This document shows, piece by piece, positions 6,607 through 56,677 of a stretch of 64,000 nt of DNA (position 1 is its first letter; each line of letters opens with the position of its first letter). Source of the DNA: Anaspis maculata. Lineage: Eukaryota > Arthropoda > Insecta > Coleoptera > Scraptiidae. Under the pieces are notes generated by a model, which saw only the letters and a program-made list of their open reading frames with translations, had not been told where the DNA came from and searched no databases. Made by a program: the position numbers and the translations under genes. The DNA lies in assembly GCA_949128115.1 (NCBI GenBank), contig OX421965.1, positions 37,443,681 to 37,507,680 on the forward strand, written 5' to 3'.

Positions 6607-8802
6607 GGCCAGTCAAATTAGAACAAATTTTTCCGTTTGAGGGAAAAAACTGTTGGAGTTTTGCAAATTTGACAGTAATGTCCGATAAGGTGTACTGTTG
6701 AACATACTAAAAGTCCCCAACTCTACCTATTGAGCTCGAGCCGCCATCTTGGAAAAATGGTCCTTCGATCCAGTTTTCTGCTCATATTCCGCTAATCATC
6801 AGAGATATTCAATTAAGTTTAATAAAAAATCAAGGCTATAAAATTGTCTACAAAAATTGTTTCATACCGATTTTTTCTCGTATCTGTTGAAATTAATTAA
6901 ATCAAATTGACAAAAAAAAAATCAAAAAATGAGCGATTTTTTGCCTATGGCTAGAGATATTGTCTTCAAAATTTGTGAAGATGTTGGCAGTCTACATCAA
7001 AGCTGAACGTGACAGTTGAGATAGAAAAAAAAATTGCGAAAATATTTTTTTAATTTTTTTTAAATTAAGCAAAAATTTGGTTTTTGAGTTTGACATTTCC
7101 AACACGGCGGAGTAAAGGTTTCAATCGAACATCAATCAGTTTTGATATTTACATATTGCAAGACAAGATTTCATCAGTATTGTGCCTTCACGAGCTTCTG
7201 GAATGCTCGATATGAATTAAACTGAAATAATAATAGCTAAATCCAAAAAGTGTTGTCGATTGGTTCTGAAGGTAACATTTCAAAACAAAAGACATCAGCA
7301 AAGAATATACAGGAGGTCCAAAGGTTATTCAACTGTATATAAGCCCCATATTGATTTGCCTTGTCCAAAATAGTAAAAAGAATCAATCATAATGTTAAAA
7401 TCCACCCTGTATAACAAAAAGTAACGATACAAAATGGAAGTAGTAGATCATACCTGGTGCCAAAAATACAGCTTTTACATTGCTAAAAAAAAAGAACAAA
7501 ATTATTTGATTTATTTCAAAGTTATTAGTTCTCAAACTTGACTTCACAAATTTCAGCCAGTCAAATAGGGAAAAGTAGAGAGAAGTAACGGTCGGAGTTT
7601 CAGAAATTTGACAGGAATGTTCGCTAAGGTATACTCATAAACATACTGAAAGTCCCCGCCCCTACTTATTGCGCTTGAGCCGCCATCTTGGAAAAATGGT
7701 AATAAACTTGATCGAAGGACCATTTTTCCAAGATGGCGGCTCAAGCGCAATGAGTAGAGGCGGGGACTTTTAGTATGTTTATAAGTATACCTTAGCGAAC
7801 ATTCCTGTCAAATTTCTGAATCTCCGACCGTTACTTCTCTCTACTTTTCCCTATTTGACTGGCTGAAATTTGTGAAGTCAAGTTTGAGGACTAATAACTT
7901 TGAAATAAATCAAATAATTTTGTTCTTTTTTTCAGCAATGTAAAAGCTGTATTTTTGGCACCAGGTATGATCTACTACTTCCATTTTGTATCGTTACTTT
8001 TTGTTATACAGGGTGGAATTTCACATTTTGATTAATTCTTTTGTACTATTTTGGATAAGGCACATCAATATGGGGCTCATATACAGTTGAATAACCTTTG
8101 GACGTCCTGTATATCCTTTGCTGATGTCTTTTGTTCCGAAATGTTTCCTTCAGAACCAATCGACAACACTATTTGGACTTAGCTATTATTCTTTCAGTTT
8201 AATACATATCGAGCATTCCAGAAGCTCGTGAAGGCACAATACTTATGAACTATTGTCTTACAATATGTAAATATCGAAACTGATTGATGTTCGATTGAAA
8301 CCTTTACTCCGCCGTGTTGGAAATGTCAAACTCAAAAATCAAATTTTTGCTTAATTTAAAAAAAAATAATAAAATATTTTCGCAATTTTTTTTCTATCTC
8401 AACTGTCACGTTTAGCTTTGATGTAGACTGCCAACATCTTCACAAATTTTGAAGACAATATCTCTAGCCATAGGCAAAAATCGCTTATTTTTTTATTTTT
8501 TTTTTGTTAATTTAATTTAATTAATTTCAACAGATTCGAGAAAAAAATCGGTATGAAACAATTTTTGTAGACATTTTTATATCCTTGATTTTTTATTAAA
8601 CTGAATTGAATATCTCTGATGATTAGCGGAATATAAACAGAAAACTGGATCGAAGGACCATTTTTCCAAGATGGCGGCTCGAGCTCAATAGGTAGAGTTG
8701 GGGACTTTCAGTATGATTAACAGTACACCTTACCGGACATTACTGTCAAATTTTCAAAACTCCAACAGTTTTTTCTCTCCAGCTTTCCTTATTTGACTGG
8801 CC
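6607..8802. repeat. 2.2 kb near-continuous palindrome with GGCCAGTCAAAT ends
   Basis: The left arm (6607-7700) is repeated inverted almost throughout in 7715-8802, with only about 15-20 bases at the centre unpaired. The ends read TA-GGCCAGTCAAAT and ATTTGACTGGCC-TA, so a TA target duplication is plausible. A second pair of GCCAGTCAAAT ends lies inside (7556 and 7864), as do paired CAGGGTGGA-type ends (7404 and 8017) and paired CAGGAGGTCC/GGACGTCCTG ends (7309 and 8101). One arm therefore already contained nested elements before the whole was duplicated in inverted orientation. GCCGCCATCTTGGAAAAATG occurs in direct and inverted form four times. No coding frame is supported. Confidence 0.9.
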
Positions 8803-10051: not shown

Positions 10052-11510
10052 GCAGCGGTTAACTACCATTTTTCAGGGAAACCTTGCATTTTGTGATAAA
10101 AGCATGAAATTTGGCATATACGCTCTACAGACTTTCCTTTGCTATTTACGAGGCGGACCCACGATGGAACCGCCATGCGGCTGTCGGGATTGCCATTTGC
10201 CTACCTTTCAGGGGCAAAAACTGAAGCCGGTTATCAAGTTGATTCAAAAGTGACGTCTATCAATGACGTAGACCTTCACAGTAAAACTTCACCACAACAG
10301 ATGTCAATATCACAAGAGGAAGGGGAATGGGAGGGGATAATTCCAGTCGGGGCCAAGATTTTCTTTTTTGTTAATTGCGGACCAAATTAACAAGTTTGAT
10401 GAATTTTCCGACTAAATTCCATCTTCTTATTTCAAATAAAGTGTTGTGATTGCAATTTGAAAAAAATTGTTCTTTTTTTGTTCAAGAAAAAACATTTAAG
10501 AAAAAATCTTTGACTTTTTTATTTTGACTTTTATCCTAGTTCAAGGCATTCGAAATAGAAATCCTTACTAGTTCACTTTTTCAAAGCTTTTTGCACATGG
10601 AAACCATGTATGAGACCTGATTTTTATTTTGATAAGATCGTGAGCCTCATTTGTTCCAAAAGTCGTGAGAGTAACATGCAATCATTTTCATGTACGAATG
10701 GAAGTGTACGTGCGAAAGTATCGCGGCAATTTTGCCAGCTGCACGGCGGTTCCGTCATGGGTGCACACCTCTTATATCGTGAAGGACAGTCCATAGACCA
10801 TGTATGCCAAGTTTCAGGCTTTTATCACAAACTGCAAGGCTTTGCACGCACACCTCCATTCGTACATGAAAATTGATAGAATTATTGGATATTACTTTTA
10901 CGACTTTAGGAACAAATGAGGCTCACGATCTTGTCCAAGTAAAAATCCGGTCTCGTACATGGTTTTCATGTGCAGGAAGCTTTGAAGAAGTGAATTAAAT
11001 ACGGATTTCCACTTCGAATGCCTTGAATTAGGATAGAAGTCAAAATGAAAAAAGCCTACAATTTTTTTTCTGAAATATATTTTTTTTAACGGAACAAATT
11101 TTTTTTCAAACTGCAATCACAACATTCTATTTAAAATCAGGAGATGTAATTTAGTCGGAAACGACACCAAACTTGTTAATTTGGCCCGAAATTAACAAAT
11201 AAAAAAATCTGTGCCGCGGCTAGAACTATCCCCTCCCATTCCCCCTCCTCTTGTAATATTGACATCTGTTTTGGTGAAGTTATACTGTGAAGGTCTATTG
11301 CATTGATAGACGTCACTTTTGCATCAGCTCGATAACCGACTTCAGTTTTTGCCCCTGGAAGATAGGCAAATGGCAATGCTGACAGCTGCACGGTGGTTCC
11401 ATCGTGGGTCCGCCTCGTAAATAGTATAGGACAGTCTGTAGAGCGTATGTGCCTAATTTCATGCTTTTATCACAAAATGCAAGGTGGTTCTTACTAACTG
11501 CCGCACTACA
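10052..11510. repeat. Foldback element with a nested TIR element in its centre
   Basis: The left arm (about 10078-10440) returns inverted at about 11120-11490. Markers are TGCATTTTGTGATAAAAGCA at 10087 with its complement near 11465, and GGCGGACCCACGATGGAAC near 10151 with its complement near 11396. A further pair (CATTTGTTCCAAAAGTCGTG near 10648 and its inverted copy near 10910) closes on the centre. The mirror frames at 10139-10390 (+) and 11176-11391 (-) encode similar peptides only because they are the two arms. Outer ends are estimated to within about 20 bp. Confidence 0.8.
10687..10874. repeat. Central insert with 27-bp inverted ends
   Basis: The ends TTTTCATGTACGAATGGAAG and CTCCATTCGTACATGAAAAT are inverted copies and extend to about 27 bp. 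The interior (10738-10850) contains a third, diverged copy of the outer element's terminal sequence, including GGCTTTTATCACAAACTGCA, suggesting repeated insertion into self. Confidence 0.7.
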
Positions 11511-12937: not shown

Positions 12938-13510
12938 AAAGGGCCTTCCACACGCACAAGCTTTACCTCGCGCTTACTTGTACGGTATAATTTGCGCAAG
13001 TTATACGGAACACCACAGGGCCTGCCACACGCACAAGCTTTACTTCGCGCTTACTTGTACGGTATAATTTGCGCAAGTAATACGGAACACTACAGGGCCT
13101 GCCACACGCACAAGCTTTACCTCGCGCTTACTTGTACGGTATAAATTGCGCAAGTAATACGGAACACTTAAGTGGCTTGCACGTGCTACCATTTTGTCGT
13201 CCACACGCACGGGTTTCCCGATACATGCCAGTTTGCACAAGTGAAAAGGGCCTTCCACACGCACAAGCTTTACCTCGCGCTTACTTGTACGGTATAATTT
13301 GCGCAAGTAATACGGAACACTACTGGGCCTGCCACACGCACAAGCTTTACCTCGCGCCTACTTGTACGGTATAATTTGCGCAAGTAATACGGAACACTTA
13401 AGTGGCTTGCACGTGCTACCGTTTTGTCGTCCACACGCACGGGCTTCCCGATACATGCCAGTTTGCACAAGTAAGCGCGAGGTAAAGCTTGTGCGTGTGG
13501 CAGGCCCTTT
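12938..13510. mobile_element. MITE with internal 77-bp satellite, inserted in copy 1
   Basis: Terminal inverted repeats of about 45 bp run from AAAGGGCCTTCCACACGCAC to GTGCGTGTGGCAGGCCCTTT. Copy 2 of the host element lacks it and reads GCAGCTTTAGATTTAG at the same place (about 14634-14649), giving the empty site. The flanks read GCAGCTAA and TAGATTTAG, so a short T/A target duplication is likely but altered. The TIR and short target are loosely Harbinger-like; I do not assign a superfamily. Confidence 0.85.
12948..13480 (+). repeat. 77-bp tandem repeat array inside the MITE
   Basis: Units start at 12948, 13025, 13102, 13255 and 13332, each opening with CCACACGCACAAGCTTTAC and containing ACTTGTACGGTATAA. 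After the third and fifth units a variant (CCACACGCACGGG, at 13201 and 13431) intervenes, producing a 153-bp higher-order step. Frames seen here on both strands simply track the repeats. Confidence 0.9.
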
Positions 13511-15118
13511 AGATTTAGTTACAAAAAACGTCATATCAAAAGTGTCAATCTCATGGAAACTTCATAATTTATTCTCAGGTTGTGAGTCAGATCGTTCATT
13601 CCTTTCAGTCAGAAAGTATTTCTTCAGGTTTTTATCGATTATCACGTGCAGCACTTCATTCAAGGTGCACTTGAAGGAAGATACATGCAGTCTTGATGTC
13701 AAACCGTCTGTTTCCGATCTCAGGACTAAAAAAAATTGGTACCTGGGGAGTCATCAGATTTCCTTCTTATCACAGTCTCAATCAACATTGTGCACATGTA
13801 GATAGTAAAGCAGAAAAGTAAACTCCATGGCCTTGTTCTACTTCAACTGAGCCTTTTCCTTTTAGTGTTACTGTAGTCCAGAGGTTAGTGACATGGACCT
13901 GCACAATGTGCAATGCACATGGTGACAGAAGCACGAAATCTGGTAGATGGCACAACAGACTGTACTGTACCCTGTATCTACTATTTTGATTGAGAACGGG
14001 CGGGCGCCTGGCAGATTATTTTCTCGACTGGCTCAGGAAACCACGGCCACTTTTGGTTGTAGTGACAAACCTTGGCTTCTTTCTGGCAGTATGCGTTCGA
14101 CCGTTCAGTACGTTACTAAAGAGCAAAGCAACGCGCTGAATGCTGGCAGCTGCATTGTTGGAATCGCTGAAGAATTCTTCGTAACAGCGTCAAAGTATTT
14201 CACGTTCTCTCGCAGATAAACGAGATGGATCCCCCACACATGGCGTGAAAATTTTCAGGTAATCAAAACCAATGAAGGAACAACACAACAGTAACAGTAG
14301 GTATAACGTAACAGGAACAACAGTAACTGTATAAGTAACACGTACAGATTCTTAAAACTTGCGTCGATAGGTGCTTATTACGATTTTCTTTCCAAAAGCT
14401 ATCTAGGTGGACAGAAACATGACAGTTTGGACGACAGTAAAAAACTTCGCGGTTGATTTTGATTGACATGTCACACTGACTTGGGACTAAAACAAACGTT
14501 CTGGAACTAGACAAAGCTGAAGCGACTTTTACCATATACTTCCATTGCCAACTGAGATAGCAATTAATCTGAAACAACGTATATACGTTGATTCAGAAAT
14601 ATTGCTATCCCAGTAGGTCATGAAAATCTAAATGCAGCTTTAGATTTAGTTACAAAAACCGTCAAATCAAAAGTGTCAATCTCATGGAAACTTCATTATT
14701 TATTTTCAGGTTATAAATCAGATCTTTCACTCCTTTCAGTCAGAAAGTATTTCTTCAGTTTTTTATCGAGTATCACGTGCGACACCTTATTCAAGGTGCA
14801 CTTGAAGAAAGATACATGCAGTTTTGATGTCAAACCGTCTGTTTCCGATCTCAGGACTAGAAAAAAATGGGTACCTGGGAAGTCAGCAGATTTCCTTCTT
14901 GCATAACTTCTTGCATAGGTTCAATCAACATTGTGCACATATCACACAGGTAGCTAGTGAAGCAGAAAAGCAGACTCCATGGCCTTGAGAGAGATCAGAT
15001 ATCAAGAAAGATCTTATTCTTCTAAAGCCGAGTTACGCTGTTCTATTTCAACTGAGCCTTTTACCTCGGGTTCCACCAAACTTGTATCAACGCGATAACT
15101 TTATCACTCTGATAGTAA

Positions 15119-15262
15119 TGTGGCGGCTCTCATATGGGCATGTGGCGGAGGAACTGTTGTCTCCCCCGATAGCTTAGTGGTCAGAGTATCCATCCGGCAA
15201 ATGGAAGACGCGGGTTCGAGTCCCGCTCAGGGCAGACACTTCTTCTCCGTCACATCGCGCCA
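15119..15262 (+). mobile_element. Solo LTR of the tRNA-like TRIM family
   Basis: This 144-bp sequence starts TGTGGCGGCTCTCAT and ends CACATCGCGCCA (TG...CA). It matches the LTRs at 52201-52344 and 52614-52755, which lie in the opposite orientation. It is flanked by a perfect 6-bp duplication, TAGTAA, at 15113-15118 and 15263-15268. No internal region is present, as expected after LTR-LTR recombination. The tRNA-like portion lies at 15163-15234. Confidence 0.93.
15163..15234 (+). other. tRNA-like sequence with Pol III A and B boxes (in solo LTR)
   Basis: A box TAGCTTAGTGG at 15170-15180; B box GGTTCGAGTCC at 15213-15223. The anticodon stem TCCAT/ATGGA is fully paired around loop CCGGCAA, so the triplet in anticodon position is GGC, with an unusual C at position 33. 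The T-stem GCGGG/CCCGC is fully paired. The acceptor stem has two mismatches (first and fifth pairs), so a working tRNA is unlikely. It is tRNA-derived rather than a tRNA gene. Confidence 0.85.
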
Positions 15263-16799
15263 TAGTAACTAAGCAACTGGCCATCCTATTGGCTGGTGCA
15301 TAGCAACTATCAGCGTGATAGATTAATTCTCCTCTTAAAATTTTGGTGGAACCCGAGGTAAGTGTTACTGTAGTCCAGAGGTTAGTGACATGGACCCTGC
15401 ACATGGTGACACAATCACGAAATCTGGTAGGATGGCACAACAGACTGTACTATACCTACTCTTTTGATTGAGGACGGGCGCCTGGCAGCTTTTTTTTCTC
15501 GACTGGGCTCAGGGATCCACGGCCACTTTTTGGTTGAAGTGACACACCTTGGGTTCTTTTTGTTAGTATCCGTTTGACCGTGCAGTAAGTTACTAAAGAT
15601 CAAAGCAACGCGCTGAATAATGCTGACAGCTGCATGGTTGGAGTCTCTGAAGTATTCTTCGTAACAGCGGCAAAGTATTTCACGTTATCTTGCAGATAAA
15701 CGAGCTGGATCCCCACACAGCCACACATGGCGTGAAAATTATCAGGTGATCAAAACCAATAAAGGAACAGCACAACAGTAACAGTAGGTATAACGTAACA
15801 GGAACAACAGTAACTGTATAAGTAACACGTACAGATTCTTAAAACTTGCGTTGATAGGTGCTTATTACGATTTTCTTTCCAAAAGCTATCCCAGGTAGAC
15901 AGAAACATGACAGTTTGGACGACAGTAAAAAAAACTTCCCAGTTGATTTTCATTGACATGTCACACTGACTTGGGACTAAAACAATAAACGTTTTAGAAC
16001 TAGACAAAGCTAAAGCGACTTTCACCATATACTTCCATTGCCTACTGAGATAGCAATCAATCTGAAACAACGTTATGCTTTGGTTTGAGCACATTTGACA
16101 TTTCCAAAATCCAAAAAATCAGAAATTTTGAAGTTTGAAAAAGTTTATTCTGGATTTTGGAAATGCCAATGCCAATCCTTGTAGCTTTCCAAAGAAACCT
16201 GAATGATAATTTCTGCCAAGGAGTAAGCCCGTAGCACTTGATTTCGCAACGGCTGATTTCACGAATTTACTTGCCAATTTAACTCCGTCCTTGAAGGAAA
16301 ATGTTCAATTAGCTATTTCATTATTAAAATTCTTGTTGCAACCGGGGGTTTACTCTCGGGTTTACTTCAATTTACTGACAGCTAGTTCCACTAAAGTCTT
16401 ATGAGAGAATCAACTTTATCACGGTCATAGTTGCTATAGGTGATTTCGAGGGTGATTTACATTTTGAAAACGCCACCTGGTGTAGAGCTCGGTACTTGAT
16501 CGTGCAGGGATTTTTTTGAGAATAACACTTACAGGGACGTCTAGTAGCCTAGGTAGGCGCTAGTAGATACCTGCAATACCCACATCAATGACATGAAATT
16601 TGACAAGTAGAAATAGTGTAAAAGAGGGTGGGGTCTACTTTTGTGTCCCCCATTTGATCTTGTAAATAGAGTATGTAGCAGGCTACTAGTAGATCTAGTT
16701 CCAGAGGTGAGGGGCTGGAAGACTGCGCCAGGAGCAATGCATTGCATTGCAGTTGCGGTGGAAAAGTTGCGACTGGTGACTGTTACTTTACACCTTCCC

Positions 16800-18198: not shown

Positions 18199-19130
18199 TA
18201 TAGTATGTTCACTTGTACCGTGATTCTAGTCGGCTCGGCTGTGAGATTTTGTTTTAAGTTTCCCTTTCCAAATCTGAAGTATAGAAAATTCCCAAAACTT
18301 TGCGATTGACTGCTCTGGCTTCATTTGGCACAATAATTCACAGAGAGACACGAAGTCGTGCGGACCACTTTTGGAATTCATTTTTCACGCATTTTCTCTG
18401 CAGATAGACGGAATTTTCTTGCAAGACGTGATATCTGGCGCTTTTTTCTATTTTATTGGAAAATGTAGTAATTTTTGACCTGTTCTTAATTTTCGCCAAT
18501 GAGCAAATAAATCAAAACGGCTTTGACATTTGACAGGTGTCAAAAATATTTCTAACCTCTCGAACTTTACGTGATTCAAACTAAAAAGATACTTGCCCTT
18601 CGTCCGAAAAAGGGGTCCCATGAAATCATAAATCCTTTTACCTCTTCAAGTCGAAAAGACACGCCGAACCATGAAGTACTATTGGCAAGACAAAGAACAA
18701 CCCAGCAGGCCTGCTGTTGCAGCAGGATTTACGTGTAAAAATTTAATAATCCGAATTTCAAAAAACCCAGCCGCTCAAAGTTGCGTATTGGACCGAAATT
18801 TATGTGAGTACTTTCAGTTTACAATTTGCTTTCGTTTTGGACCTTGGCGGAACGAGTTTTTGTCGGCCTTGAATGGCCGCCGTCGAGATGACTCAAATTG
18901 AAGGCGGCCCCGTAGGGTTCTGGTGTCTAAATGACGGTAATACATCTCTGCGCCCCTCTAGTCGCATTTCCACGTATGACAAGGTCAGTTCCCCAAAATT
19001 TCAATATCAATTTGATAAGAAATATAACTTCACTTCTAGAGAAGTCAGTTTCACACCAGGTAAAAAGGCGGCAAGTCTATACAACGCAAAAGTAGAAAAT
19101 TTGCTCAGCCAACTAGAGTCACAGTACAAG
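18199..19130 (+). mobile_element. TIR element, TATAGTAKGTTCACTTGTAC family, right end damaged
   Basis: Left end TATAGTATGTTCACTTGTAC; right side still has AGCCAACTAGAGTCACAGTA (19108-19127) but lacks the last bases of the TIR. The interior matches the reverse complement of 33604-34509, including the CACACCAGGTAAAAAGGCGG and GTGTCTAAATGACGGTAA phrases. The 126-codon frame at 18873-19253 starts inside and runs out past the element's end, so it is not a gene of the element. Confidence 0.8.
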
Positions 19131-19865
19131 CAGTTGTGTTCTAGACAACGAGCGGGTATGCAAATCCACAAAGTGAAATCGAACCAAAAAAGGATCAATC
19201 ACATAGGGTCTAGACTCCAGAGCTCGCTCCAGAGTCTGTTATGGTTAGAGTGAAACTCCAGAATAGCACTCTGCAGATTTGTCTCCAGAGCCAAAAGTAG
19301 CGATTTTTTTGCACTTTCCGCGGCAAATTATCTGTTTCGATAGAAGCGATGCCATTCAGATAGTCATACCACCGGAAAATGTCAATTTTAACAAGTCATA
19401 AACTTCAATATTGACAATTATTCTAACAAAAATGTTTGCAACTGCCGCATGAGGGTGCTGGAACGGGCGGGAGATTCAAAATGTGCATAGTGCCTATATA
19501 GCGGGATAAAGCCAAAGGCGTAACTTCCCGAGCACACCACCACAAGACATGACAACCGACGAGATTCCTGTACGAAAAATGATGATGTTCAAATGCTGAA
19601 ATGGAACATTTCATGGAAGTAGATTGCATTTTTCCGTAATTAGATCAACTAAAAATTGTACTATTGGGAGGAGAATAGTGGTATAATGGTTACTGTAGAA
19701 TGTGAGGTTTTAGTCGACCTTCATCGCACCTCACACCGTCATCGTCACCACAATTGGCGTTTATTTGTTCCCGAACTATCTTGTACTTTTACGGAAATTC
19801 GGAAATACAGCCCTTCAAAGTTGGCTAGCCAAGAACAGTTTTCGATTTATGCCTCAAGAACCATT
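19131..19865. other. Unassigned DNA
   Basis: Contains three CCAGAGTC/CTCCAGAG-type near repeats at 19218-19285. No gene or RNA is recognised. Confidence 0.35.
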
Positions 19866-33603: not shown

Positions 33604-34509
33604 TATAGTAGGTTCACTTGTACTGTGACTCTAGTTGGCTGGGCAAATTTTCTACTTTAGCATTGTAGGCTTGCCGCTTTTTCACCTGGTGTGAAACTGA
33701 CTTCTCTGGAAGTGAAGTTATATTTCTTATCAAATTGATATTAAAATCTTGGAAAACTGACCTGGTCATATGTGGAAGTGTGACTAGGGGGACGCAGAGC
33801 TGTGTTACCGTCATTTAAACACCAAAAGAGCACGGGGCGGCCGCAAATCTAAATCATCTTGACGGCGGCCCATTCAGAGTCGACAAAAACTCGTTCCGGA
33901 AAGCCCCAAAATGAAAGCAAATTGCAAATTGAAGGTACTAACATCAATTTCGGTTCAATACGCAACTTTGAGCGGCTGGGTTTTTTGAAATTTGGTTTAA
34001 TTTACTTTTTACACGTAAATTCTTTTGCCAATGACAGACTGCAGAGCGATCCTTGTATCGCCCATAATTCTTCAGGGTTTGGCTTGTATTTTTGACTGGA
34101 AGAGGCGAAAGGGTTGATGATTGCATGGGACCCCTTTTTTTGACGAAGGCCATTGTATACTCTTTAATTTGAAGCACCGAAAGTTGAACCGGTTTCAAGA
34201 GGTTAGGAATATTTTTCACAACTGTCAAATGTCAAGGTTCTCTTGATTCATTTGTTCATTGGCGAAAATTAAAAACAGGTCGAAAAATTGTTACATTTTC
34301 CAATAAAATGGAAAAAAGCGTCAGACATCACGTCCCGCAAAAATGTTCCGGCTATCTGTGAAGGAAATACGCAAAAAATGTGTTTCAAAACTGGTCCGGC
34401 CAGAGCAGCCAACTGCAAAGTTTTGGGGATTTTCTATATTTCACATTTGGAAACTTAGAAACAAAATCTCACAGCCGACTAGAATCACGGTACAAGTGAA
34501 CCTACTATA
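33604..34509 (-). mobile_element. TIR element, TATAGTAGGTTCACTTGTAC family, complete
   Basis: About 38-bp TIRs with three mismatches (TATAGTAGGTTCACTTGTAC at the left; GTACAAGTGAACCTACTATA at the right, 34490-34509). TA-rich flanks fit a TA target. The interior is the reverse complement of 18199-19130. No transposase frame; the frames of 66-94 codons on both strands are accidental. Confidence 0.88.
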
Positions 34510-52194: not shown

Positions 52195-52200
52195 GAACTA
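52195..52200 (+). repeat. Target site duplication GAACTA (left)
   Basis: Identical to 52756-52761. Confidence 0.93.
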
Positions 52201-52344
52201 TGGCGCGATGTGACGGAGAAAAAGTGTCTGCCCTGACCGGGACTCGAACCCGGGTCTTCCATTTGCTGGATGGATACTCTGACCACTAAGCTATCGGGGG
52301 AGACAACAGTTCCTCCGCCACATGCCCATATGAGAGCCGCAACA
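52201..52344 (-). repeat. 3' LTR of the TRIM-like element
   Basis: On the minus strand it starts TGTTGCGGCTCTCATATGGG and ends CACATCGCGCCA. The tRNA-like part lies at 52229-52300. Confidence 0.92.
52229..52300 (-). other. tRNA-like sequence in the 3' LTR
   Basis: On the minus strand it has A box TAGCTTAGTGG and B box GGTTCGAGTCC. The anticodon stem has a change in this copy (CAGCAAATGG instead of CGGCAAATGG). The T-stem CCGGG/CCCGG is fully paired. The acceptor pairs 5 of 7. Confidence 0.85.
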
Positions 52345-52357
52345 GTACTCCCCTTCC
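52345..52357 (-). promoter_or_regulatory. Candidate polypurine tract
   Basis: On the minus strand it reads GGAAGGGGAGTAC directly before the 3' LTR, the position where plus-strand DNA priming occurs in LTR elements. Confidence 0.7.
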
Positions 52358-52595
52358 AGAGACGTCGTTCGTCTCGTATGTACCCCTGCGTTCACCGTAC
52401 TTATGGATCATTGACCGTTGTTCAGTACCCCCCACCTAGGGCGACGGATAGGACGTGGGTGGACGTAGGACAGAGAAGTGGCGGTGCTGTTTATTTGTTT
52501 GTTGCTTGCTTTGTACCTCTTTGCCTTCTGCATGTGCGTCGTTGCTTGCTTTGTACCTGTTTGTCTGAGTTGCATGTTGCGTGCGTGTTGTTTTT

Positions 52596-52609
52596 GTTCG
52601 GGGTCACCA
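52596..52609 (-). promoter_or_regulatory. Candidate tRNA primer-binding site
   Basis: On the minus strand TGGTGACCCCGAAC begins four bases after the CA end of the 5' LTR. TGG matches the universal tRNA CCA end and the rest would pair with a tRNA 3' end reading GTTCGGGGTCACCA. The primer tRNA is not identified. Confidence 0.75.
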
Positions 52610-52613
52610 TTTA

Positions 52614-52755
52614 TGGTGCGATGTGACGGAAAAAAAGTGTCTGCCCTGACCGGGACTCGAACCCGGGTCTTCCATTTGCCGGATGGATACTCTGACCACT
52701 AAGCTATCGGGAGAGAACAGTTCCTCCACCACATGCCCATATGAGAGCCGCCACA
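52614..52755 (-). repeat. 5' LTR of the TRIM-like element
   Basis: On the minus strand it starts TGTGGCGGCTCTCATATGGG and ends CACATCGCACCA. It is 142 bp, with a 2-bp deletion relative to the other two LTR copies. Confidence 0.92.
52642..52713 (-). other. tRNA-like sequence in the 5' LTR
   Basis: 72 nt with A box TAGCTTAGTGG, anticodon stem TCCAT/ATGGA, loop CCGGCAA, T-stem CCGGG/CCCGG and B box GGTTCGAGTCC. The acceptor CTCCCGA/TCAGGGC is imperfect (two mismatches, one G-T). It could direct Pol III transcription but is unlikely to be a translating tRNA. Confidence 0.85.
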
Positions 52756-52761
52756 GAACTA
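52756..52761 (+). repeat. Target site duplication GAACTA (right)
   Basis: Identical to 52195-52200. Confidence 0.93.
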
Positions 52762-52762
52762 T

Positions 52763-53387
52763 CATTTCGACGTGCGCATCCAACAACATCGTAACTTCAT
52801 TTTTGGCTATTTTGAGATTTCTATGCAGACCCACTGTGAAGAATATACCTAGTATGCTCTAATGACTGGTTCTGTTCATAAAGCAAAAAAAAACTTTTTG
52901 GGGACTCTTTTGAAAAAATAATATGATCGTAACTCAAGATAATTGAGCTCAATAAAATCGTGTCTTGAGATACGAATTGTTCGTCACGAGAACTGAGTAA
53001 AATATAATCGTAACTTCGGACATAATTATACGATCTTATTCAATTAAAACTTACGAGTAAAATATGATCGTCTCTTAGCTTACGATCTTATTGTATCAAC
53101 ATTCAGTTAATTTTAATACATCTTTCAATATAATCTCTACATATACGACAATATTTCATAAAAATTTCATGATAAAATAAAATCGTAACTCGTCAATCAC
53201 GCCTTTGCATCCATTTGGAAAAAATTAAAATATCTACATTGGAAGAACGTCTACCTAGTTGGGGTAAATGAAAAATCTTCACTTCAATGCAAAAACCTGA
53301 TTTTTGATAGTGACTTGAACTTCAAACGCGCCTCCTGTTGAATCACTGTTTTCAAGATACGATGTTATTAGATGCGCACGTCGATTT
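52763..53387. repeat. Foldback with CGACGTGCGCATC arms and ATCGTAAC motifs
   Basis: ATTTCGACGTGCGCATCCAA at 52764 is mirrored by TAGATGCGCACGTCGATTTA near 53369-53388. The interior carries many ATCGTAACT/TACGATCTTA motifs in both orientations (52930-53190). The TRIM-like element sits immediately to the left and probably inserted into this foldback's outer arm. Confidence 0.75.
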
Positions 53388-56600: not shown

Positions 56601-56672
56601 GGTCCCATGGTGTAATGGTTAGCACTCTGGACTTTGAATCCAGCGATCCGAGTTCAAATCTCGGTGGGACCT
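56601..56672 (+). tRNA. tRNA-Gln: tRNA-Gln (anticodon TTG)
   Basis: A complete 72-nt cloverleaf. The acceptor is GGTCCCA/TGGGACC with discriminator T. The D-arm is GTGT/GCAC. The anticodon stem CTGGA/TCCAG encloses loop CTTTGAA with anticodon TTG at 56634-56636. The T-stem CCGAG/CTCGG encloses TTCAAAT. A box TGGTGTAATGG (56608-56618) and B box GAGTTCAAATC (56650-56660) are the internal Pol III promoter. No intron; CCA is not encoded, as usual in eukaryotes. It reads CAA codons. It is solitary, about 530 bp right of a hAT element. Every stem pairs, so I see no sign of a pseudogene. Confidence 0.97.
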
Positions 56673-56677
56673 CGCAG

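Follow-up and report, generated by a model that had tools for sequence, protein, structure and literature searches.

A probable Helenus-type TRIM with tRNA-like sequences in its LTRs in the beetle Anaspis maculata

Which kind of element carries a pair of neighbouring tRNA-like sequences in the genome of Anaspis maculata, and how might it be transcribed? The question arises from an initial annotation of a stretch of 64,000 nt (contig OX421965.1, positions 37,443,681 to 37,507,680; hereafter the window), in which a LTR retrotransposon had been described with all its parts within 555 bp. The two-LTR anatomy was confirmed, whereas the extent has to be revised. The element spans ~557 bp on the minus strand (52755-52199) and is bounded by two near-identical direct terminal repeats, i.e. 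the LTRs. It is very probably a TRIM of the Helenus type, that is a LTR retrotransposon without coding capacity, here ~557 bp long, with a tRNA-derived Pol III promoter in its LTRs. Helenus elements are TRIMs with tRNA-like LTRs, a primer-binding site (PBS) and a purine tract, described from fungi, animals and one lycophyte (Kojima 2024, PMC10886601). The assignment is based on the LTR pair, an independent solo LTR with a duplication of its own, covariance model matches in three of three LTRs, the promoter boxes and the PBS. The main parts of the element are:

52612..52755, minus strand: 5' LTR, 144 bp, TGTGGC...ACCATA (142 bp with a CCA end at 52614)
52598..52609, minus strand: primer-binding site TGGTGACCCCGA, which pairs over 12 nt with the 3' end of tRNA-Trp
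52345..52611, minus strand: internal region, 267 bp, coding domain not found
52348..52357, minus strand: polypurine tract GGAAGGGGAG, 3 nt upstream of the 3' LTR
52199..52344, minus strand: 3' LTR, 146 bp, TGTTGC...GCCATA (144 bp with a CCA end at 52201)

The direct repeats are 413/411 nt apart. Over 142 aligned positions the 5' and 3' LTR differ by 6 substitutions and one 2-nt gap. A LTR of 144 bp had been proposed at first; the repeats themselves are confirmed, but their lengths are 142/144 bp (CCA end) or 144/146 bp (CCATA end). The distance between the two LTRs (6 in 142) is not below that between the 3' LTR and the solo LTR described below (5 in 144), hence the full element did not insert very recently. 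A Pfam scan of the five overlapping frames of the element (≥75 aa) gave no match at the cut-off. One weak match below it was to DUF7378 (16.3 bits vs. a cut-off of 27). Moreover, a protein homologue search with the frame spanning the 5' LTR returned zero candidates. Within the internal region, positions 52501-52566 hold a 26-nt direct repeat (92% identical, 40 nt from start to start).

Both priming signals named in the initial annotation were recovered at the expected places. TGGTGACCCCGAAC follows the 5' LTR at 52609 and its core TGGTGACCCC occurs a single time in the 64-kb window. The PBS proper, TGGTGACCCCGA, is spaced from the 5' LTR by 2 nt if the LTR ends with CCATA or by 4 nt if it ends with CCA. 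Its pairing with tRNA-Trp comprises 12 contiguous nt and ends past position 12; the reference was an engineered human tRNA-Trp gene as printed in the excerpted text of PMC6379413. The purine tract GGAAGGGGAG is located at 52357-52348.

A tRNA-like centre with A and B box had been claimed for each LTR. ARAGORN, Rfam and the positions of the boxes all agree with this claim, also for the solo LTR:

52642..52713, minus strand: tRNA-like part of the 5' LTR, RF00005 50.4 bits, ARAGORN tRNA-Ala (ggc)
52706-52696 and 52663-52653, minus strand: A box and B box of the 5' LTR, located in the sequence
52630..52636, minus strand: T7 run, candidate Pol III terminator just past the tRNA-like part of the 5' LTR
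52229..52300, minus strand: tRNA-like part of the 3' LTR, RF00005 52.8 bits, ARAGORN tRNA-Ala (agc)
52293-52283 and 52250-52240, minus strand: A box and B box of the 3' LTR, located in the sequence
52219..52223, minus strand: T5 run, candidate Pol III terminator just past the tRNA-like part of the 3' LTR
15163-15234, plus strand: tRNA-like part of the solo LTR, RF00005 56.7 bits, ARAGORN tRNA-Ala (agc or ggc)

The Rfam cut-off for RF00005 is 29 bits and all three LTRs match the model end to end. The A box TAGCTTAGTGG and the B box GGTTCGAGTCC are identical in the three LTRs, 43 nt apart, and fit the motifs described for Helenus (TRGCY, YGG, GGTTC) in each of them. The LTRs vary at 9 substituted positions, none of which changes a box, as counted over three similar copies. 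Nineteen of 21 cloverleaf pairs are formed in each LTR, and the same two acceptor-stem pairs fail every time. A free-energy fold of the tRNA-like stretch yields no clean cloverleaf in any of the three. A 31-nt probe from the tRNA-like part found three matches in the window at ≤3 mismatches (two exact, one with 2 mismatches) vs. 0.00 expected. For contrast, the window holds a seemingly ordinary tRNA-Gln (TTG) gene at 56601-56673, which scores 70 bits, has a T8 run shortly downstream and looks like a tRNA gene of an animal. Three of the four tRNA calls of ARAGORN in the window are the LTRs.

As Rfam and ARAGORN both call tRNAs here, one may ask whether two SINEs or tRNA genes came to be neighbours by chance and were mistaken for a LTR pair. 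This is highly improbable. The repeat covers the whole 144-146 bp, well beyond the 72-nt tRNA-like part; duplications border the element on either side; a PBS and a purine tract are correctly placed within it; and the solo copy has the identical two ends. A SINE, consisting of a single tRNA head and a tail without LTRs or PBS, does not agree with the LTR pair and the PBS.

A BLAST search of the window with the element as query revealed the solo copy, which is absent from the initial annotation. It is 94-96% identical to the LTRs of the element, and the match is confined to the LTR. Its surroundings, together with the target-site duplications (TSD) of both insertions, are:

15119..15264, plus strand: solo LTR of the same family, TGTGGC...GCCATA
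15115..15118, plus strand: TSD GTAA left of the solo LTR (in the 6-bp reading TAGTAA, starting at 15113)
15265..15268, plus strand: TSD GTAA right of the solo LTR (in the 6-bp reading TAGTAA, starting at 15263)
15064..15358, plus strand: MITE-like palindrome holding the solo LTR, ends CCTCGGGTTCCACC...GGTGGAACCCGAGG, flanks TTA/TAA
52756..52759, minus strand: TSD GTTC on the 5' side of the element (in the 6-bp reading TAGTTC, running to 52761)
52195..52198, minus strand: TSD GTTC on the 3' side of the element (in the 6-bp reading TAGTTC, taking in 52199-52200)

The palindrome is situated within the longer of two paralogous units (~14640-16080) and corresponds to a gap in the other (~13507-14600). 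Without the LTR and one duplication, the MITE aligns with its own reverse complement over 151 nt, ungapped, at 72% identity. Since the palindrome becomes ungapped once the LTR is excised, the solo LTR represents a discrete insertion with the same ends. Copies with other ends, or an independent SINE, had been named in the initial annotation as findings that would speak against a LTR element; the one further copy agrees with the LTR reading instead. The window thus contains two insertions of the family with three LTRs per 64 kb. Anatomy, LTR pair, duplications, third copy and its empty site are all directly observed.

Where exactly do the LTRs end? The flanking duplication, GAACTA on the plus strand, reads TAGTTC in the sense of the element. 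Its length varies between 4 and 7 bp depending on the LTR end chosen. Two readings have to be considered, either TAGTTC/TAGTAA (6 bp, ends TG...CA) or GTTC/GTAA (4 bp, ends TGT...CCATA). TA follows CCA also at the junction of 5' LTR and internal region, so that the LTR can equally end with CCATA. Each reading requires one coincidence per site. The two insertions alone are therefore indecisive and leave 4 and 6 bp equally likely. The same element with true 6-bp duplications and TG...CA ends would have an integrase unlike that of the described animal Helenus elements. Both TAGTTC/TAGTTC and TAGTAA/TAGTAA match across 6 bp, TG...CA is the usual rule for LTRs, and one CsRn1 element, CsRn1_Cv1 of Calliphora, has a 6-bp duplication according to the excerpted text of PMC3630058. 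We nevertheless regard this reading as unlikely. The TA past CCA at the 5' LTR/internal junction cannot be explained by a duplication, and the PBS would lie 4 nt from the LTR, vs. 2 nt with CCATA. CsRn1-like elements, with a PBS TGGTGA(G/C)CCCG(T/A) complementary to tRNA-Trp, end with TGT...AAA or TGT...ATA and make 4-bp duplications as far as the excerpts of PMC2582038 go. Helenus duplications have 4 bp in animals and 5 bp in fungi and plants (PMC10886601). Hence a 4-bp duplication with TGT...ATA ends is probably correct, being better supported and fitting the known relatives, CsRn1-like elements and animal Helenus. The 6-bp duplication with TG...CA ends of the initial annotation does match in the flanks over 6 bp but was probably over-read, given the recurrence of TA at the junction.

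The two empty target sites (52756-52764 and 15110-15118, each with its right flank) agree at 10 of 12 positions, TGATAGTNNCTA. Among random pairs of window sites, 10/12 in some 12-nt stretch within 26 bp is reached at a rate of 0.0008. A preferred target nucleotide is not reported for CsRn1-like elements in the excerpted text of PMC2582038. As the agreement concerns two sites, was noticed post hoc and stands contrary to that paper, a target-site preference is possible but is taken as a lead only.

An animal analogue of the plant element Cassandra had been suggested for the locus. This is right in kind; such elements are already published as Helenus and grouped together with Ajax and Cassandra as TRIMp3 (PMC10886601). 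With Helenus in print, the class itself is not a new claim. The present element shares with Helenus the miniature LTR format, tRNA-like LTRs with A and B boxes, PBS, purine tract and solo LTRs, and its ~557 bp are inside the span of 311-1263 bp given for Helenus. If its LTR ends with CCATA, it also shares the 4-bp duplications. A tRNA-Trp primer is used by some hymenopteran Helenus families and also by Gypsy-32_NVi (PMC10886601), and Ala-type tRNA calls are known from some fungal families (Table 2 in PMC10886601). In contrast, the list of bivalve Helenus primers is without tRNA-Trp (PMC10886601), and the duplication would differ if that of the element were truly 6 bp. The likeness was assessed against the published description of Helenus.

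Cassandra elements resemble the present one by the promoter of a small RNA gene within the LTRs of a TRIM. The promoter is 5S rRNA-derived there and tRNA-derived here; in the element, Rfam at gathering thresholds returns tRNA only and no 5S rRNA match. The tRNA-derived SINEs (SINE2) are likewise short and have a tRNA-derived Pol III promoter, whereas our element differs by its LTR pair, its PBS and purine tract, its integrase-type duplications and LTR-type mobilisation. As for other TRIMs of animals, ta-TRIM and PbTRIM use a tRNA-Leu primer and biv-TRIM is without a clear primer site; a LTR-borne tRNA promoter is not mentioned for any of the three in the excerpted texts. Other papers on LTRs with tRNA promoters were not found among the matches listed in the open literature (titles and starts of abstracts).

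How would such a non-coding element move? Reverse transcriptase and integrase would be supplied in trans, most likely by a CsRn1-type Ty3/Gypsy element making 4-bp duplications. Judged from the cis signals, we consider this driver fairly probable. We had at first taken the PBS of the element to be typical of BEL. A BEL/Pao driver was set aside as the excerpted papers link tRNA-Trp, 4 bp and TGT...ATA to CsRn1 (PMC3630058, PMC2582038). Members of the CsRn1 clade of Ty3/Gypsy (PwRn1, AgCR elements; PMC2582038, in excerpts) resemble our element in the PBS TGGTGACCCCGA and, under the better-supported reading, in TGT...ATA ends with 4 bp. Unlike it, they are autonomous, with gag and pol and about 4.2-6.2 kb among the rows of Table 1 in the excerpted paper (PMC2582038). 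The clade is proposed as trans driver, distinct from the element itself. An autonomous partner of this type would be marked by a CHCC motif in Gag and a GPY motif in the integrase; none was noticed in the window.

Transcription of the element by Pol III appears likely. The polymerase would initiate in the 5' LTR, close to its tRNA-like part, pass the T-run there as well as the internal region, and terminate on reaching the T-run in the 3' LTR. The resulting RNA would start and finish with a tRNA-like part, and this repeat would act as the R region during strand transfer. Minus-strand synthesis would be primed by host tRNA-Trp at the PBS, plus-strand synthesis by the purine tract. Recombination between LTRs would finally yield solo LTRs such as 15119-15264.

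The T-runs complicate this scheme. Transcription by animal Pol III generally stops at four or more Ts. With such a terminator-like run in the 5' LTR, a full-length RNA needs read-through, and the run should halt Pol III before it enters the internal region, provided that read-through is not frequent. The solo LTR carries a broken run (TTCTT), so that the run is intact in one of two insertions. As the LTRs of a pair are identical when made and the first five Ts are kept in both, each LTR must, by parsimony over the three LTRs, have carried T5 or more at insertion. At the position extending the run to T7 the 5' LTR alone differs. Expression without a Pol II promoter in the LTR, as initially suggested, is plausible but complicated by the T-run after the tRNA-like part. 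In the main text of the Helenus paper, 'terminator' appears once, in the introduction on Cassandra, and 'TTTT' zero times (PMC10886601).

The T-run also feeds a different explanation. Here the tRNA-like part would be the relic of a captured tRNA or SINE, and the element would be an ordinary TRIM that depends on Pol II, with transcription from U3 or from promoters nearby. A T-run immediately behind the tRNA-like part would stop Pol III within the 5' LTR, and Kojima states that Pol III activity of Helenus is unproven without experiments (PMC10886601). Against a relic speak the A and B boxes, unchanged in all three LTRs despite the 9 substituted positions, and the 19 of 21 cloverleaf pairs kept in each, which with three similar copies is weak evidence. 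Taken together, a relic does not seem likely, and we continue with the Pol III-transcribed Helenus-type element.

Could the tRNA fold be maintained beyond the promoter boxes? When the full element is compared with the solo LTR, one T-stem pair, outside the B-box core, is changed on both sides (C-G to G-C). At a second variable pair the 5' LTR has U-G where the other two LTRs have C-G, such that pairing is retained. We simulated four random substitutions in the 72-nt part. Of the trials, 1.9-2.0% produced one or more pairs compensated on both sides, and 0.6-0.8% did so with zero broken pairs. Being a single event in three sequences that was spotted post hoc, the compensated pair is a lead only, and the compensated T-stem change gives a hint that the fold is conserved. 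A more far-reaching scenario, which we regard as quite unlikely, is that the tRNA-like part is kept as folded RNA and not just for its promoter boxes. The genomic RNA would then be composed of tRNA-like part, internal region and tRNA-like part, with a whole cloverleaf as R. The stop at the 5' T-run would mostly release free tRNA mimics of ~80 nt, read-through RNAs alone would be mobile, and the terminator would set the ratio. The fold could then matter for the stability of the RNA, for its processing by tRNA enzymes, for strand transfer or for packaging into a CsRn1-type particle. For Helenus, predicted RNA structures are said not to support a tRNA function in general, while a capacity to encode a tRNA is ascribed to seven bivalve and 15 fungal families (PMC10886601).

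Contig collections were searched for copies outside the window. CTCATATGGGCATGTGG and GATAGCTTAGTGGTCAGAGTA had 0 matches in viral contigs and GATAGCTTAGTGGTCAGAGTATC had 0 matches in genome contigs. For GGCTCTCATATGGGCA, two loci in viral contigs (L001, L002) were returned; the best match is a 17-nt exact stretch, L001 also having matches at an E value of 0.98, and both were rejected as chance. As these collections are viral and prokaryotic, zero matches say little on an animal element.

Further features of the window are given for completeness. For the ORF at 18873-19250, a homologue at E ≤ 0.001 was not found among 6 candidates; it lies in a repeat that is 85% complementary to 33666-33870. 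Seven ORFs of the window gave nothing above the Pfam cut-off, with F5_F8_type_C_2 and DUF5423 as weak matches below it. A tandem array occupies 12940-13472, where a 77-bp unit (6.0 copies, 76% matches) overlaps a 230-bp unit (2.0 copies, 96%). Long nested inverted repeats are found at 6639-8801 and 10081-11485, with arms of 386, 354 and 238 nt that are 89-95% complementary. They are perhaps foldback elements or inserted transposons.

If our reading is true, the LTR elements with tRNA promoters, a class described only recently, gain one more family. Its agreeing cis signals, i.e. the primer site together with LTR ends and duplication under the better-supported reading, would tie it to the CsRn1 clade as likely helper; the 2024 Helenus paper, in the excerpted text, names Gypsy as the superfamily and gives a single family for tRNA-Trp (Gypsy-32_NVi; PMC10886601). 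LTR-borne tRNA-like sequences would moreover inflate tRNA gene counts, as documented in rust fungi (PMC10886601). Finally, a Pol III terminator in both LTRs should end most transcripts within the 5' LTR, which poses a testable problem.
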